Part shown: positions 6,677-37,848 of the stretch, piece after piece | How positions within the stretch are numbered: the stretch's first letter is position 1 | Layout: every line of letters begins with the position of its first letter | Source of the DNA: Candidatus Puniceispirillum sp. | GTDB lineage: Bacteria > Pseudomonadota > Alphaproteobacteria > Puniceispirillales > Puniceispirillaceae | Assembly: GCA_028382965.1 (NCBI GenBank) | Contig: JAOEUK010000001.1 | Location: forward strand, 124,001-188,000 | Direction: 5' to 3' | DNA: 64,000 bases | Position numbers and translations under genes: made by a program | Notes under the pieces: generated by a model | Databases searched by the model: none | What the model was told of the DNA's origin: nothing | Seen by the model: the letters and a program-made list of their open reading frames with translations, nothing else

Positions 6677-7329
6677 TCTTTCTCATGAAAAGTTAAACCA
6701 TGTTTCCGTAAAATTTCTAATAGCTCAAGTAAGGGTATGCCAAGAATACCATAATGACAGCCTGAAATTTTTGACAATAAATGGGCGCCAGGCCCTTCAA
6801 TTTGATAACTAGCTGGAGATATTAACGCCTCATCACCTATATGCTTGATATACGCATCTATAAAATCACTATCCAACTTACGCATCGTTATATCTGCTAC
6901 AGATAGATGATGCCAAATCCGGTTACCGTGCTGAAGCAAAACCACAGCAGTGTATAATTGATGAGTTTTGCCCGATAAAGCCATTAGTTGTGATTTGGCA
7001 GCTACAGCATTTAACGGTTTATTGTAAATTTGATTTTCATAAGCAAGTATTTGATCACAGCCAAGAATATACCCTGATGGTTTTTGCCCTTCGATAGAAA
7101 GTAGCTGTGCCGCGGCGCTAGCCTTCATTTCTGCCAGGGCGATCGCTATATCCGATGGCGGTATCATTTCAGCCATGCCCGCCATACGAACAGCATCTTC
7201 ATCTATATTGACTGGATATTGGCAAAAAACTAAACCGCTATCCGTAAGAAGTTTTGCTCGTGTCGCACTTGCAGAAGCTAAAACAAGATCACCTGTAGAT
7301 AAAGTCGCAAAATTTGGTTTAATTATCAC
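6673..7329 (-). CDS. maf: Maf-like nucleoside triphosphate pyrophosphatase
   Basis: This cytoplasmic house-cleaning enzyme hydrolyses non-canonical or excess nucleoside triphosphates to monophosphates. The N-terminus shows LVLASASATRAKLL, the conserved phosphate-binding SxSxxR stretch, and YILGCDQIL carries the catalytic acidic residue. The 218 residues are normal. Translation begins at a GTG that overlaps the ppsR stop codon (GTGA), so the pair is coupled. Whether it prefers dTTP/UTP or m7GTP-type substrates cannot be settled by eye. Confidence 0.92.
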   Translation of the reverse strand: MIIKPNFATLSTGDLVLASASATRAKLLTDSGLVFCQYPVNIDEDAVRMAGMAEMIPPSDIAIALAEMKASAAAQLLSIEGQKPSGYILGCDQILAYENQIYNKPLNAVAAKSQLMALSGKTHQLYTAVVLLQHGNRIWHHLSVADITMRKLDSDFIDAYIKHIGDEALISPASYQIEGPGAHLLSKISGCHYGILGIPLLELLEILRKHGLTFHEKE

Positions 7330-8147
7330 TGATTCTCACACCAAGCATTATAGTGTTGCAAAATTGACGCTGCCGTTTCCTCAACTGAACGGCGAGTCAC
7401 ATCAATTACCGGCCATTTATTATCGGTGAATAATCGCCTAGAAGCGCGGACCTCTTCGGTGATTTGTTTAACGCTTACGTAATTTTTATTATCTTTATCC
7501 TGCATATACGACTGCCGTGTATGACGAATTTGGCTAAGACGTTTAGGGTCGTTCGTTAAACCAATTACAAAAAGTGCAGCACCATCAAGAAAATGCTTTG
7601 GAAACGGCACATGTGGCACTAAAGCATAATTTGCGACTTTATATCCACGATGAGCCAAATACATCGATGTAGGTGTCTTTGAAGTACGTGAAATGCCAAC
7701 AATCAGCATGTCAGCTTTTTTTAAATTCCCCATATTCATGCCATCATCATGACTTACTGCAAAATCAACGGCAGCCATTCGATTAAAATAAGCTGTATCA
7801 AGTCGACGTTGCCCACCAGGTAAATTTATCATTGCTTGATCAAGTACAGTTGCCAACAAATTTACTACTGGATCAAGTACTGAAGTTGATGGAACGCCCT
7901 TAGTCCGACATGCACCTTCAATTGCTAAGCGTATATCCTGATCTATTATACTCATCAACAATATTCCTGGGTGCCGATCCAATCCAACAAATAACGCATC
8001 AAGATGCTCAGATGAACGCACCAAAGTCCAAACATGCTCAACTGTTTTAACGTCGGTAAATTGTGCAAGGCATGCGCGTGCTACCTGATGCACAGTTTCA
8101 CCAGTAGAATCCGAAACGAGATGGATATGTAGCGTTTGTTTAGGCAT
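7326..8147 (-). CDS. ppsR: Pyruvate, phosphate dikinase / PEP synthase regulatory protein (DUF299)
   Basis: This is a bifunctional ADP-dependent kinase and Pi-dependent pyrophosphorylase that switches PEP synthase or PPDK off and on by threonine phosphorylation. The sequence begins with IHLVSDSTGETV, has the P-loop-like GISRTSKTPTSMYLA near residues 151-165, and ends with the basic helix SVEETAASIL typical of the family. A GTG lies one codon upstream of the chosen ATG. It is the first leftward gene from the candidate origin, the position held by the homologous gene beside the Caulobacter and Rickettsia origins. Confidence 0.93.
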   Translation of the reverse strand: MPKQTLHIHLVSDSTGETVHQVARACLAQFTDVKTVEHVWTLVRSSEHLDALFVGLDRHPGILLMSIIDQDIRLAIEGACRTKGVPSTSVLDPVVNLLATVLDQAMINLPGGQRRLDTAYFNRMAAVDFAVSHDDGMNMGNLKKADMLIVGISRTSKTPTSMYLAHRGYKVANYALVPHVPFPKHFLDGAALFVIGLTNDPKRLSQIRHTRQSYMQDKDNKNYVSVKQITEEVRASRRLFTDNKWPVIDVTRRSVEETAASILQHYNAWCENQ

Positions 8148-8150
8148 CAC

Positions 8151-8544
8151 ATAACAATATGTAAATAAAAACTGTTAATTTGTCATCTTTTTCATAATTA
8201 GAATGCATTAAACTGTCTAACTGCAACCGTTCAAAGACAACTTATAAATTATGATTGACATTGTGTATAGATTTAACGGCAGTGGGGATGGTTGTACCCC
8301 TTAAAATATAAAGCTACGTTTCCCACATAAAGACAGGATTACTCCACCTGGGGATAATAATAAAAATGAGTTGTTTATAAAAACCGATTACCAATAGAAA
8401 TTAATTAAAACATATGCTTATTTAATCTGCCTTTGTGGAAGAAATAGTGGATAACCTGTGAATACCTGATAATTTGCACTTACACACAGGACCTACAACA
8501 ACAACAACCTTTTTTTAATATATATTTAATGATAGAAAATTTAA
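8151..8544. other. oriC: Candidate chromosomal replication origin (oriC)
   Basis: This gene-free gap lies between the divergent genes ppsR and hemE, the place where oriC lies in Caulobacter and Rickettsia. Five 9-mers match the DnaA box TTATNCACA at 8 of 9 positions: 8262-8270 (minus), 8349-8357 (minus), 8446-8454 (minus), 8457-8465 (minus) and 8480-8488 (plus). An (ACA)n tract at 8497-8508 is followed by an almost pure A/T stretch at 8511-8544 that could be the unwinding element. Nearest genes on the left read leftward and those on the right rightward. parAB and two parS sites lie within 10 kb. The function is inferred. Confidence 0.75.
8515..8529. promoter_or_regulatory. CtrA-like binding motif (TTAA-N7-TTAA) upstream of hemE
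   Basis: TTAA at 8515-8518 and TTAA at 8526-8529 are separated by exactly 7 bases, the spacing of the CtrA consensus. It lies in the candidate origin, 16 bases before the hemE start. In Caulobacter, CtrA binds such sites in oriC and at the hemE-proximal promoter and blocks replication. The surrounding sequence is nearly pure A/T, so a chance match is quite possible. Confidence 0.4.
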
Positions 8545-9573
8545 ATGATTGATAAATTGTTCCTTTCAACAATTACCGGCAATAAATCGCAAAGAACACC
8601 CATTTGGATGATGCGACAAGCTGGAAGATATTTAAAAGAATATCAATTAATTCGTTCAGCACAGAAAGACTTTATCACATTTTGCCTTAACCCTGAGAAA
8701 GCATCAACTGTTACGGTACAGCCAATCACACGTTATGCATTTGATGCAGCTATTATTTTTTCTGATATTTTAATAGTACCTTGGGCTATGAATCGTGATG
8801 TAAGATTCCAAACAGGAATTGGTCCGTTACTAAATCCAATGGTTAAACCAGATGATATAAATAAGTCATGCTTAAATGATTTTGAGCAAAAATTATTGCC
8901 TGTAGGGGAAGCAATAAAACTCACTAAAGCATTATTACCCAAAGAAATAGCACTAATTGGATTTGCAGGCGCACCTTGGACATTAATTACGTATATGGCA
9001 GAAGGAAAATCATCACGTGACTTTCAAAAAGCACGGCTATGGGCGTGGCAAGATGCAAAAGCACTTGACGGTTTATTAGAAATTCTAATAGAGGCAACAA
9101 TTCTATTTTTATGTTTACAAGCTAGATCTGGAGCAGAATGTCTGATGCTATTTGATAGCTGGGCTAGCGCAGTACCTGCAAGTCAGCGTGATTGGCTAGT
9201 AACAAAGCCAACAGCAGCAATCGTAAAAGGTGTCCGCAAGCAAGGATATAAACAACCTATTATAGGATTTCCTAAAGGATTTGGTGATGGACTGATAAAT
9301 TTTGCTAATGAGAGTGGAGTAGACGCGATTGGATTAGATCATAGCATTAACCCAATGTGGGCCGAAAAAAATTTACCAAAAAATTTACCTGTTCAAGGTA
9401 ACTTAGATCCGATAAGTTTGTTAGGTTCGGGAAAAGAAATGTTTCGAGACATAGATAATATTTTAGAAGCATTTCACAATCGGCCACACATTTTTAATTT
9501 AGGCCATGGCATTACTCCACAAACACCAGTAGAAAACGTTCAGATTATGATCGATTATATAAGAAACCGTTAG
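8545..9573 (+). CDS. hemE: Uroporphyrinogen decarboxylase
   Basis: HemE decarboxylates the four acetate groups of uroporphyrinogen III to give coproporphyrinogen III in heme synthesis. The N-terminal signature RTPIWMMRQAGRYLKEY lies at about residues 18-34, and the second family signature GFAGAPWTLITYMAEG is near 138-153. The 342 residues are typical. The ATG has no clear Shine-Dalgarno sequence and is preceded by an A/T-rich leader within the candidate origin. hemJ follows 10 bases downstream, so the two heme genes form one unit. Confidence 0.95.
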   Translation: MIDKLFLSTITGNKSQRTPIWMMRQAGRYLKEYQLIRSAQKDFITFCLNPEKASTVTVQPITRYAFDAAIIFSDILIVPWAMNRDVRFQTGIGPLLNPMVKPDDINKSCLNDFEQKLLPVGEAIKLTKALLPKEIALIGFAGAPWTLITYMAEGKSSRDFQKARLWAWQDAKALDGLLEILIEATILFLCLQARSGAECLMLFDSWASAVPASQRDWLVTKPTAAIVKGVRKQGYKQPIIGFPKGFGDGLINFANESGVDAIGLDHSINPMWAEKNLPKNLPVQGNLDPISLLGSGKEMFRDIDNILEAFHNRPHIFNLGHGITPQTPVENVQIMIDYIRNR

Positions 9574-11459: not shown

Positions 11460-12035
11460 TCATTTTGAGGGCGCTGTAAGATATGTCGCATCCGGCTGTC
11501 TACGTCTTAGACGTGTGGTTCCTTTGGACTCGAGGTGCAATAAGCCTGCCTTACGTGCTAAATTAGTACTGTGTGTTGGCGGAAGATTACTTCCACTTCC
11601 ATAATTTCCCAACCCTCCATCGGTTCGTATTATTCTGTGGCAAGGATATATTATTGGGATTGGGTTAGTTGCACATGCAGTTCCTGCAGTGCGTGCTGCG
11701 TTAGGTTTGCCAGCGATTCTAGCAAACTCGGCGTAAGTGATGAGTGTGGCATAGGGGATTTTTGCCATAACATTAAGCCAATGTTGGCTGGCATCAGTTT
11801 TTCCAGCAGGTGCCAAAGGGAGTGTAAACTTACAAAGTTTATTATTGAAATAAGCTTGAAGCTGAAAGATTGTTTCACGTGAAACACTGTCGGGGTGGTC
11901 TGGTTCGTCCCACCCAGTCTGATTCCAATCAAGGCGTATTAAGCTTGCGCCATCACTAATCGGCCGTATCCAGCCAAAGTTGGTTTTTAAGGTAGACATG
12001 TAAAATTTAATTAGTGGTTCGTTAATTTTTTGCAT
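11460..12035 (-). CDS. ogt: Methylated-DNA--protein-cysteine S-methyltransferase
   Basis: This DNA repair protein transfers the methyl group from O6-methylguanine to its own cysteine. The active-site PCHRI lies at residues 131-135 with Cys132, preceded by the helix-turn-helix region ITYAEFARIAGKPNAARTAG that enters the minor groove. At 191 residues it is close to Ogt length. The gene converges on rho. A perfect parS palindrome lies in its coding sequence and specifies VSRET at residues 51-55. No Ada regulatory domain is present. Alternative start at Met13 is possible. Confidence 0.92.
   Translation of the reverse strand: MQKINEPLIKFYMSTLKTNFGWIRPISDGASLIRLDWNQTGWDEPDHPDSVSRETIFQLQAYFNNKLCKFTLPLAPAGKTDASQHWLNVMAKIPYATLITYAEFARIAGKPNAARTAGTACATNPIPIIYPCHRIIRTDGGLGNYGSGSNLPPTHSTNLARKAGLLHLESKGTTRLRRRQPDATYLTAPSK
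11871..11886. promoter_or_regulatory. parS: parS centromere site 1
   Basis: TGTTTCACGTGAAACA is a perfect 16-bp palindrome and matches the conserved bacterial parS consensus bound by ParB. It is inside ogt, about 3.4 kb from the candidate origin and 5 kb from the parAB genes. ParB loading here and spreading would place the segregation complex beside the origin. Confidence 0.93.
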
Positions 12036-15504: not shown

Positions 15505-16100
15505 CAGCTGAGGAGATTGGTGAGCTCCTGAATGTTTCACGTGAAACAATAAGTCAATTTCAAGAGTATCTAGCCTTATTGGAGAAATGGCAGCCTCGAA
15601 TCAATTTGGTCGCTAGCAGTACGTTAGTGCATGCTTGGCAACGTCACATTTTAGACTCTGCGCAGCTAGTGGCTTTTTATCCTGCAAACACTAAACATAT
15701 ACTCGATGTTGGCAGTGGTGCAGGGTTTCCTGGGCTTGTGTTGGCAATCATGGGAGGTGTGCAGGTTGATCTTGTTGAATCAGATCAGCGGAAGGCAATT
15801 TTTTTGTCAACGGTAATTCGTTTACTTGGCTTGCCAGCAAAGGTTCATAATCAACGGATTGAAAAAATGACGAATATGTTTCCTGATGTAATTACCGCTC
15901 GCGCAGTAGCTCCTGTTCCTAAACTATTGAAAATATTAAAAAATCAGATAAACAAGGATACTGTTTGTTTGTTTCTAAAGAGTGCTTCAGTGCAAGAAGA
16001 ATTGACCAACTTACAAACTTATTCCAATATGATTCCGACGACTTATCCGAGTCTTTCTAGCCCAGATGGTGTCGTTTTAGAGATGAAAAATAAATGTTAA
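15501..16100 (+). CDS. rsmG: 16S rRNA (guanine-N7) methyltransferase RsmG
   Basis: RsmG methylates guanine 527 (E. coli numbering) of 16S rRNA using S-adenosylmethionine. The SAM-binding motif is [17 protein letters not shown], near residues 68-84. The 199 residues are typical. The GTG start shares bases with the mnmG stop. Codons 12-16 form a parS site, so the N-terminal VSRETI is constrained by DNA as well as protein function. parA follows after 59 bases. Confidence 0.94.
15533..15548. promoter_or_regulatory. parS: parS centromere site 2
   Basis: This is a second perfect copy of the palindrome TGTTTCACGTGAAACA, located in the 5' end of rsmG where it encodes VSRET at residues 12-16. It is 3.66 kb from site 1 and about 600 bases before parA. 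parS at this place in rsmG is known in several bacteria, and the family N-terminus carries the same peptide. Confidence 0.94.
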
Positions 16101-16159: not shown

Positions 16160-16942
16160 ATGACTTCTACAGCGCGCATTATAGCAATTGCTAATCAAAA
16201 AGGTGGTGTTGGAAAAACAACCACTTCTGTTAATTTGGCAACAGCTTTATCGGCGTGCGGACGTCGAGTGTTGTTGGTTGATTTTGATCCACAGGGAAAT
16301 GCCTCTACAGGGCTTGGTATCAATCCCAAAGACCGTCAGGCTAATAGTTATCGACTTATAACTGGCGAGGTTGGTATTCTGGAAGCCATTAAGCCTAGCT
16401 CGGTCCCAAGTCTTGATATAATCGCAGCTGTGGTTGATCTCTCGGCAGCAGAAGTTGAACTAACAGCGGTAGATCGCCGAGAGTTCCAGTTATTAGACGC
16501 ATTAAAGCTCGGTATTCCAAATTATGATTATATTATAATCGATTGTCCCCCATCGCTTGGACTTTTGACAGTCAATGCACTTTGTGCAGCTAATCGCGTT
16601 TTAGTGCCATTGCAATGCGAGTTTTACGCTCTGGAAGGCTTGTCTCAATTAATGCGAACCATTGAAACGGTTAGAGCAGGATTAAATCCAGATTTAGCTA
16701 TGCAGGGGATAGTTCTAACAATGTATGATAGCCGCAACAAACTGTCTGAGCAGGTTGCAGGTGACGTTCGCCAACATCTTGGAGACATGGTTTATGATAC
16801 TGTTATTCCAAGAAATGTTCGTGTTTCTGAGGCGCCGTCCTTTGGCCAATCAGTATTGATGTACGATCTACATTGTGCTGGCTCGCAAGCCTATGTTGCG
16901 CTTGCTGCTGAATTTTTGAATCAAGAAAAGGAAGCTTTTTAA
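16160..16942 (+). CDS. parA: Chromosome partitioning ATPase ParA
   Basis: ParA is a deviant Walker ATPase that moves ParB-parS complexes to the cell poles. The deviant Walker A is ANQKGGVGKTTTSVNLA (residues 11-27), and DFDPQGNASTGLG and IIIDCPPSLGLLT are the A' and B motifs. The 260 residues without an N-terminal HTH identify the chromosomal (type Ib-like) form. The stop codon shares one base with the parB ATG (TAATG), so the two are made together. Confidence 0.96.
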   Translation: MTSTARIIAIANQKGGVGKTTTSVNLATALSACGRRVLLVDFDPQGNASTGLGINPKDRQANSYRLITGEVGILEAIKPSSVPSLDIIAAVVDLSAAEVELTAVDRREFQLLDALKLGIPNYDYIIIDCPPSLGLLTVNALCAANRVLVPLQCEFYALEGLSQLMRTIETVRAGLNPDLAMQGIVLTMYDSRNKLSEQVAGDVRQHLGDMVYDTVIPRNVRVSEAPSFGQSVLMYDLHCAGSQAYVALAAEFLNQEKEAF

Positions 16943-17883
16943 TGTCGTCAAATTTCTCCTTAAATAAAGAAGTGCCAAAAAAACCAGCTGCTCGCGGCCT
17001 TGGGCGGGGATTATCGTCTCTTCTTGGGGATAGTGGTGTCGCAATGACAGCAACGGCATCGTCCAATCTTCAGCCCAATTCAATTGGAAACCCGCAAATA
17101 ACTGGTTTTAGACAAATACCCGTTGAGTGGATTAATGTTGGCCCCTGGCAACCACGGCGACGGTTTGATAAAGCTGGCCTTGAAGAATTAGCAGTATCGG
17201 TTCGCAAAAATGGCATTGTTCAGCCAATACTGTTACGGCCAAATCCAGAAAATAATTTACGATTCCAGCTAGTTGCTGGCGAACGGCGTTGGCGCGCCGC
17301 GCAACTGGCAAAAACCTATGAAGTGCCTGCTATTATTCGAGATTTAGCTGATTCTGAATGTTATGAAATTGCACTTATTGAAAATATCCAACGCACTGAT
17401 TTAAGTGTTATTGAAGAAGCGCAGGGCTATCACAAATTGTTGGAATCTAACCGCTATACACAAGCACAACTATCTGAAATTATTGGAAAATCTAGAAGCC
17501 ATATTGCCAATATTTTGCGCCTGCTGTTATTGCCAGAACTGGTTCAAACGCTTCTTCTTGATCGAAAGATTACAATGGGGCAAGCGCGACCCTTGATTGG
17601 CCATAAACAAGCTGAAGCGCTGGCCAAATCTATTGTTGCGCGAGGGCTGTCGGCACGCCAAGTGGAAGTGTTGGCTAAACAAGGCGAAAGTAAGGTGAAT
17701 AAATTAAAGAAAAAGCCAAAAAAATCATCAGATACAAAGGCCCTTGAACAACAGGCAGCGGTCAAGCTTGGGCTGGCGGTAAATATTGAATGGGACGAGA
17801 CTAGGGAATGCGGCAAGGTTACAATTGACTGCCGATCTTTGGATCAAATAACTGGTTTCTTAGCTAAACTTGGAATTCATTAG
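16942..17883 (+). CDS. parB: Chromosome partitioning protein ParB
   Basis: ParB binds parS and spreads along DNA as a CTP-dependent clamp. The N-terminus has the ParA-stimulating basic stretch RGLGRGLSSLLG. The CTPase motifs are seen as QPRRRFD, GIVQPILLRP and the GERRWRA box. The HTH region is AQLSEIIGKSRSHIANILRLL, and a C-terminal dimer domain follows a lysine-rich linker. The 313 residues are normal. Its 3' end overlaps holA by 4 bases on the opposite strand. Its presumed targets are the two parS sites in this window. Confidence 0.95.
   Translation: MSSNFSLNKEVPKKPAARGLGRGLSSLLGDSGVAMTATASSNLQPNSIGNPQITGFRQIPVEWINVGPWQPRRRFDKAGLEELAVSVRKNGIVQPILLRPNPENNLRFQLVAGERRWRAAQLAKTYEVPAIIRDLADSECYEIALIENIQRTDLSVIEEAQGYHKLLESNRYTQAQLSEIIGKSRSHIANILRLLLLPELVQTLLLDRKITMGQARPLIGHKQAEALAKSIVARGLSARQVEVLAKQGESKVNKLKKKPKKSSDTKALEQQAAVKLGLAVNIEWDETRECGKVTIDCRSLDQITGFLAKLGIH

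Positions 17884-36723: not shown

Positions 36724-37848
<1,125 letters not shown>

Follow-up and report, generated by a model that had tools for sequence, protein, structure and literature searches.

According to the available text of PMC1914354, the chromosomal replication origins of Caulobacter crescentus (Cori) and Rickettsia lie between hemE and a gene of COG1806. Origins of this type share divergent boundary genes, DnaA boxes and an A/T content above that of the genome, measure 404 bp in Caulobacter and 383-396 bp in Rickettsia and, in the Caulobacter type, include IHF and CtrA sites (PMC1914354). For the basal unwinding system (BUS) of Bacillus subtilis, excerpts of the published accounts describe a DnaA box, a spacer of about 4 bases, triplets and A/T-rich DNA, in this order (PMC8287927, PMC6669920, PMC10721633). 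The DnaA-trio reads 3′-GAT-5′ opposite the box, that is, 5′-CTA-3′ on the box strand; it follows a GC-rich spacer of ~4 bases and its middle base is conserved (PMC8287927, PMC8235120, PMC10721633). As stated in the accessible parts of PMC10721633, Asn187 of B. subtilis DnaA bonds the middle A, Arg202 and Glu228 bond the G, and a middle T works less well. Among titles and abstract openings, we found nothing on the replication origin of Puniceispirillum/SAR116, Puniceispirillum being an alphaproteobacterial genus of the order Puniceispirillales, and nothing on a TTG-type trio in alphaproteobacteria.

Here we analyse a window of 64,000 bases (124001-188000 of contig C1, which has 606,560 bases) from a Puniceispirillum draft genome of 2.38 Mb in 39 contigs with an estimated completeness of 99.6%. 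The intergenic gap between ppsR and hemE (Table 1) had been put forward from the sequence as a candidate chromosomal origin, a reading that is supported by a GC-skew minimum 187 bases off, a cluster of DnaA boxes, nearby parS and parAB, and synteny. The sequence elements of the gap, their conservation in relatives and the switch in strand composition are directly observed, and with high confidence we assign the gap as the probable oriC of this Puniceispirillum-type alphaproteobacterium. It would be an ordinary origin of the hemE/COG1806 type with a variant unwinding repeat. Placing the origin in such a draft genome orients gene-dosage and growth-rate (peak-to-trough) analyses of an uncultured marine group.

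The gap between ppsR and hemE

As noted in the first-pass annotation, the two neighbours of the gap diverge, with ppsR on the minus strand and hemE on the plus strand, both pointing away from it. The annotation also stated that the same neighbours flank oriC in Caulobacter and Rickettsia, and this synteny is documented in the available text of PMC1914354; the length of the gap is likewise similar to those reported there. A+T amounts to 71% in the gap versus 56% on C1. The DNA of the gap folds into hairpins more weakly than its shuffles (z 1.68), and a search of the window for RNA families returned a tRNA outside the gap as the sole match. The gene dnaA had been described as absent from the window, and it is indeed found outside, on the same contig, 72.6 kb from the gap.

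A HemE search of 41 genomes (our own and 40 relatives) was positive in 36 and yielded 30 loci. In 24 of these, own genome included, ppsR diverges from hemE. The remaining six offer no alignable gap: two are at contig ends (L050, L051) and four, all of family f4 (L057-L060), have no ppsR beside hemE. The hemE-ppsR arrangement recurs in 33 of 80 loci from named genomes, the other 47 being without ppsR in the flank examined. The closest named relative among these 80 loci, which were retrieved by HemE and from which records of our own genome were possibly excluded, is Candidatus Puniceispirillum sp. AH-135-E14, with 74% identity. Two alignments were used, one of 12 genus rows and one of 16 family rows including our own. 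Locus L043 (665-base gap, partial hemE match) was left out of both, and the family alignment also omits L052 and L056 of the same family as well as loci of other families.

Three observations concern the surroundings of the gap in relatives. L057-L060, from the same order, contain hemE with no ppsR within 1.5 kb upstream, and the origin surroundings may be rearranged in family f4. In one genome of the same genus (G010:C7:234527-235549), hemE is divided into four overlapping pieces in different frames, one with a TGA, reflecting either sequencing errors or a decayed gene. The distance between dnaA and the gap is ~75, 86, 76 and 125 kb in G004, G020, G025 and G031, respectively; across the dnaA loci compared (L101-L104, L001), the gene is on the ppsR side at ~73-86 kb in four genomes and on the hemE side at ~125 kb in G031.

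Table 1. Features of the candidate origin region (window coordinates; a dot marks features assigned to neither strand)
Feature	Coordinates	Strand	Remarks
Candidate oriC, whole ppsR-hemE intergenic gap	8151..8544	.	394 bases
ppsR (COG1806/DUF299), left boundary gene	7326..8150	-	NF003742, 298 bits
hemE, right boundary gene	8545..9573	+	TIGR01464, 364 bits
DnaA box TTATTTACA	8160..8168	-	one mismatch; missed in the first-pass annotation; mean major-base fraction 78% (12-row genus alignment)
DnaA box CTATACACA	8262..8270	-	several relatives have a box at equal distance from hemE, -280 to -285
DnaA box TTATCCCCA	8349..8357	-	box at -192 to -198 in several relatives
DnaA box-like TTATAAACA	8372..8380	-	54% major base, not conserved
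DnaA box TTATCCACT	8446..8454	-	mean major-base fraction 83%
DnaA box GTATTCACA	8457..8465	-	mean major-base fraction 89%
DnaA box TTACACACA, beside the unwinding side	8480..8488	+	mean major-base fraction 91%
Spacer GGAC	8489..8492	+	4 bases, from sequence
Five triplets, top strand CTA-CAA-CAA-CAA-CAA	8493..8507	-	proposed single-strand DnaA-binding repeat
AT tract	8510..8543	.	2 G/C in 34; proposed duplex unwinding element; A/T-rich in aligned relatives
TTAA-N7-TTAA, CtrA-type match inside AT tract	8515..8529	.	full match not kept in aligned genus rows
parS palindrome TGTTTCACGTGAAACA	11871..11886	.	exact 16-base match
parS palindrome TGTTTCACGTGAAACA	15533..15548	.	exact 16-base match
parA and parB	16160..17883	+	parB TIGR00180 over cut-off; parA ParA-family models, best 108 bits, below cut-offs

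DnaA boxes

The gap contains seven 9-mers with one mismatch to TTATNCACA and no exact match to it. The five boxes listed previously are all present; the list was incomplete, with 8160-8168 and 8372-8380 matching as well. Of 200 dinucleotide-shuffled versions of the gap, none contained as many as seven boxes (mean 1.0, sd 1.0). When C1 was scanned in 394-base windows, the gap was the richest place with seven boxes, followed by independent places with four.

Conservation of the boxes is above that of the gap in general. Their mean major-base fraction in the genus alignment is 79%, compared with 69% overall, and 0 of 10,000 circular shifts of the box mask equalled this value. The poorly conserved box-like sequence at 8372-8380 is perhaps a chance match. 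Many relatives have boxes at about -284, -197, -111, -98, -88 and -65 relative to the start of hemE. In 14 of the 16 family rows, a plus-strand box deviating by no more than one base lies between -59 and -66. A further plus-strand box at ~-227, present in many relatives, is degenerate in the Puniceispirillum gap of the window.

Outside the boxes, the genus alignment shows two equally conserved blocks, at ~8177-8190 and 8279-8295 (surrounding TTTGTCATCT and TGGGGAT). Neither matches any motif searched for; they may represent the promoter of ppsR and a weak binding site for DnaA. Across the whole window, 61 one-mismatch boxes were counted versus a shuffle mean of 86.8, making them rarer than chance, a depletion that resembles selection against boxes outside the origin.

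A triplet repeat beside the plus-strand box

The region 8480-8543 consists of box TTACACACA, GGAC, CTA(CAA)4, CC and the AT tract, in this order. The 34-base A/T tract reported earlier is present; it runs from 8510 and has two G/C. It has equals elsewhere on C1, where 34-base windows with no more than one G/C occur at two further places. The triplets at 8493-8507 have no equal on C1: neither strand has a second run of five in which every triplet reads C[TA]A. Together with the box at 8480-8488 (91%), they (~91%) form the best-conserved stretch near hemE in the genus alignment, and their register is kept in all 16 family rows. The first triplet has its first C and last A in 16/16 rows, with T (10), A (4), G (1) or C (1) in the middle. 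In triplets 3 and 4, the middle base is A on the top strand (T on the strand proposed to be bound) in every row.

This putative repeat is located where the DnaA-trio sits in B. subtilis, with the same succession of box, ~4-base spacer, triplets and A/T-rich DNA, and its triplet nearest the box is a perfect 5′-CTA-3′ on the box strand. The difference from the B. subtilis trio is in the bases held constant: here the middle base on the box strand is A in four of five triplets, and the outer bases, rather than the middle one, are conserved. Set against the BUS definition, TTACACACA at 8480-8488 has two mismatches to TTATCCACA, for which up to two are allowed, and the 4-base spacer falls within the range of 0-16 bases. 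The definition further asks for at least three consecutive 3′-NAN-5′ triplets, and the longest run beside 8480-8488 is one; the published three-NAN rule thus fails at this putative repeat. Strict-BUS matches in the gap are on the minus strand, within the box array, and the gaps of most relatives also contain strict-BUS matches, so the rule discriminates poorly in A/T-rich DNA. We rejected the strict rule, which requires three or more NAN no further than 16 bases from a box, as an origin test, given also its failure at the conserved place here.

Beyond the family, the box-spacer-(CAA)n pattern is also found in the Sneathiella and Kiloniella origins (L198, L171). Our comparison comprised 56 gaps, 24 from our own genome and its relatives and 32 from named genomes (L167 was dropped, as it shares a contig with L037); in 16 of them, four or more out of five triplets read C[TA]A at some place. 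In 24 gaps there is a good plus-strand box close to hemE; 11 of these have at least four of five C-N-A triplets adjoining it and six an NTN run of at least three. In the sequences compared, the putative triplet pattern is clear in the Puniceispirillum family and patchy elsewhere, with the Rhizobiales gaps examined mostly being without it. A class-wide C-N-A triplet rule was also considered and rejected, the counter-cases being the relatives L037, L038, L041 and L045 and also Azospirillum L179, which obey the strict NAN rule at the plus-strand box.

The minus strand of the repeat, 5′-TTG-TTG-TTG-TTG-TAG-3′, holds four overlapping TTGT (8494-8509), which conform to the E. coli-type DUE motif TT[A/G]T(T), and one TAG, a motif type bound in Thermotoga (PMC10316083, in excerpt). 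The repeat could be opened by E. coli-type ssDUE recruitment, in which the minus-strand TTGT would loop back to array-bound DnaA, rather than by trio-type growth. In the available text of PMC10380432, the motif bound by E. coli DnaA is TT[A/G]T(T), on what appears to be the corresponding strand, and in the E. coli DUE, as here, the TTGT motifs seem to be carried by the strand opposite the neighbouring box. However, most genus mates carry mixtures of CTA, CAA and AAA triplets, which hold fewer TTGT, and the fixed 4-base spacing to the box suits a trio better. The strict 3-base period and trio-like spacing also set the repeat apart from the E. coli DUE, as does the lack of an IHF site between the boxes by the consensus used, although HU can replace IHF (PMC10380432, in excerpt). 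We regard looping of this kind as a possible but rather unlikely mode of opening.

DnaA residues and the proposed reading of the triplets

When our own DnaA is aligned to that of B. subtilis (8btg), Tyr replaces Asn187 and Lys replaces Arg202, whereas Glu228 is kept; Val and Leu stand for Ile190 and Ile193 (B. subtilis numbering). We compared these positions in 34 further DnaAs, namely those of four closed relatives and of the 30 best-scoring loci in a 96-genome sample of the class. Position 187 is Tyr in 31, Phe in two and His in one of them (Tyr in 32/35 with our own included), and positions 202 and 228 are Lys and Glu, respectively, in 34/34. According to the accessible parts of PMC10721633, the DnaA residues reading the trio are not universally conserved, so Tyr at 187 counts as a difference and not as a formal BUS criterion.

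Our tentative suggestion is that DnaA of this lineage might read 3′-G(A/T)T-5′, with the outer bases fixed and the middle one free, that this reading goes with Tyr187 and Lys202 and that it may be widespread in alphaproteobacteria. The proposed match between Tyr187 and a free middle base is suggestive only: nearly every DnaA of the class sample has Tyr, yet the triplet pattern is far from general, with NTN in Azospirillum L179. Residue 187 and the middle base both differ here, which makes the locus a concrete test case for the contact between Asn187 and the middle A in B. subtilis.

Strand composition

The location of the GC-skew minimum had been set beforehand as a refuting test for the origin. 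Cumulative GC skew along C1 (606,560 bases, 5,000 of them N; one of the 39 contigs of the genome) drops to -4421 at C1:132731 and then climbs to the contig end. This minimum is at 8731 of the window, 187 bases past the gap and inside hemE. The minima of T-A skew (133604) and keto excess (133568) are close by, all three falling within ~1.1 kb of the gap. Past its minimum the cumulative curve stays almost level over ~60 kb, and for this reason little weight attaches to the precise base. Fitting a single change point to C1 gives 132 kb for the switch, with 120-148 kb as the 95% range from a block bootstrap. Top-strand skew at third codon positions is -0.08 / -0.19 on the left and +0.18 / +0.08 on the right; because its sign flips whichever strand the genes are on, the switch cannot be put down to gene orientation alone.

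In the closed chromosome of the same genus (G004), profiled over 200 kb, the minimum misses the homologous gap by 48 bases, and in G020 of the same family the minimum of a 20-kb stretch falls inside it. For G025 of the same order, the local minimum is 55 kb off the gap, on a shallow plateau (-2329 vs -2207). Coarse sampling of G004, G020 and G025 (40, 20 and 20 stretches of 20 kb, respectively) gave best-fit origins at distances of 12, 8.5 and 12 kb from the gap; the intervals are wide. The coarse GC interval of G004, 12-77 kb from the gap, omits the gap and admits dnaA, whereas the finer profile excludes dnaA.

Is the true origin elsewhere, for example beside dnaA, with the skew switch at the gap being a relic? 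Many bacterial origins adjoin dnaA (PMC6669920, in excerpt), and the skew profile of our own genome covers C1 only. Nevertheless, skew is still falling at dnaA of C1 (-1494 vs -4421 at the minimum) and the bootstrap range given above excludes this gene; in G004, too, dnaA is distant (75 kb) and far beyond the minimum. Moreover, no window near dnaA is among the 15 box-richest 394-base windows listed for C1. Such a displaced origin seems to us highly improbable.

We give similarly little credence to the gap being a divergent promoter region only, with boxes that serve DnaA as a transcription factor or reflect A/T richness: two divergent genes need promoters in the gap and its conserved blocks at ~8177-8190 and 8279-8295 are not boxes, but the skew switches at the gap, the box count is far above that of dinucleotide shuffles, and the three promoter-like matches at 8000-8700 equal the shuffle mean of 3.0, i.e. 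chance level.

For the assignment of the gap as oriC, the points on the opposite side are the lack of an exact box, of an IHF site and of a conserved CtrA site, the distant dnaA, the G025 minimum 55 kb off and the coarse G004 interval that omits the gap.

Proposed course of initiation

In the model we favour, DnaA made from the gene 72.6 kb away would bind the box array, which is mostly on the minus strand, together with the inward-facing box at 8480-8488. From this latter box, a DnaA oligomer would grow across the 4-base spacer onto the triplets at 8493-8507 and grip their minus strand as a single strand. The AT tract would then melt and the helicase be loaded, after which two forks would presumably leave, one through ppsR and the other through hemE.

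Regulatory factors and partition genes

The candidate origin differs from the Caulobacter type in lacking an IHF match, a conserved CtrA site, a CtrA candidate on a par with those of relatives, and ChpT. A consensus search for the IHF site WATCAN5WTR gave no match in the gap on either strand, and the CtrA-type match inside the AT tract (Table 1) is probably incidental. The best scores of the CtrA model in our own genome reach at most 127 bits, and the proteins concerned fit PhoB, OmpR or other regulators better. A CtrA-like regulator scoring 216-292 bits is present in 20 of the 41 genomes, our own not among them; the model is named for Rhodobacter-type CtrA, and its cut-off of 350 bits was reached in none of the 41. 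ChpT (PF10090) was found in none of these genomes, our own included, while the Caulobacter positive control matched. Either the likely CtrA seen in relatives has no counterpart in our genome, or it was missed in the assembly; the CtrA phosphorelay may have been lost. In its available text, PMC1914354 accepts origins without a CtrA site, so the missing CtrA does not exclude membership in the hemE/COG1806 type.

GcrA is present in our own genome, in a search whose control also matched one archaeon. The gap contains no GANTC. A CcrM-type adenine methyltransferase is encoded at 36769-37848 of the window, ~28 kb from the gap; its RAMA domain scores over the cut-off and the NCBIfam CcrM model gives 601 bits, below the cut-off of 830. 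Finally, parAB and parS had been said to be close to the gap, and this proved accurate: parAB and two parS palindromes are 3-9 kb away, and C1 has no exact parS palindrome besides these two, at 11871 and 15533.
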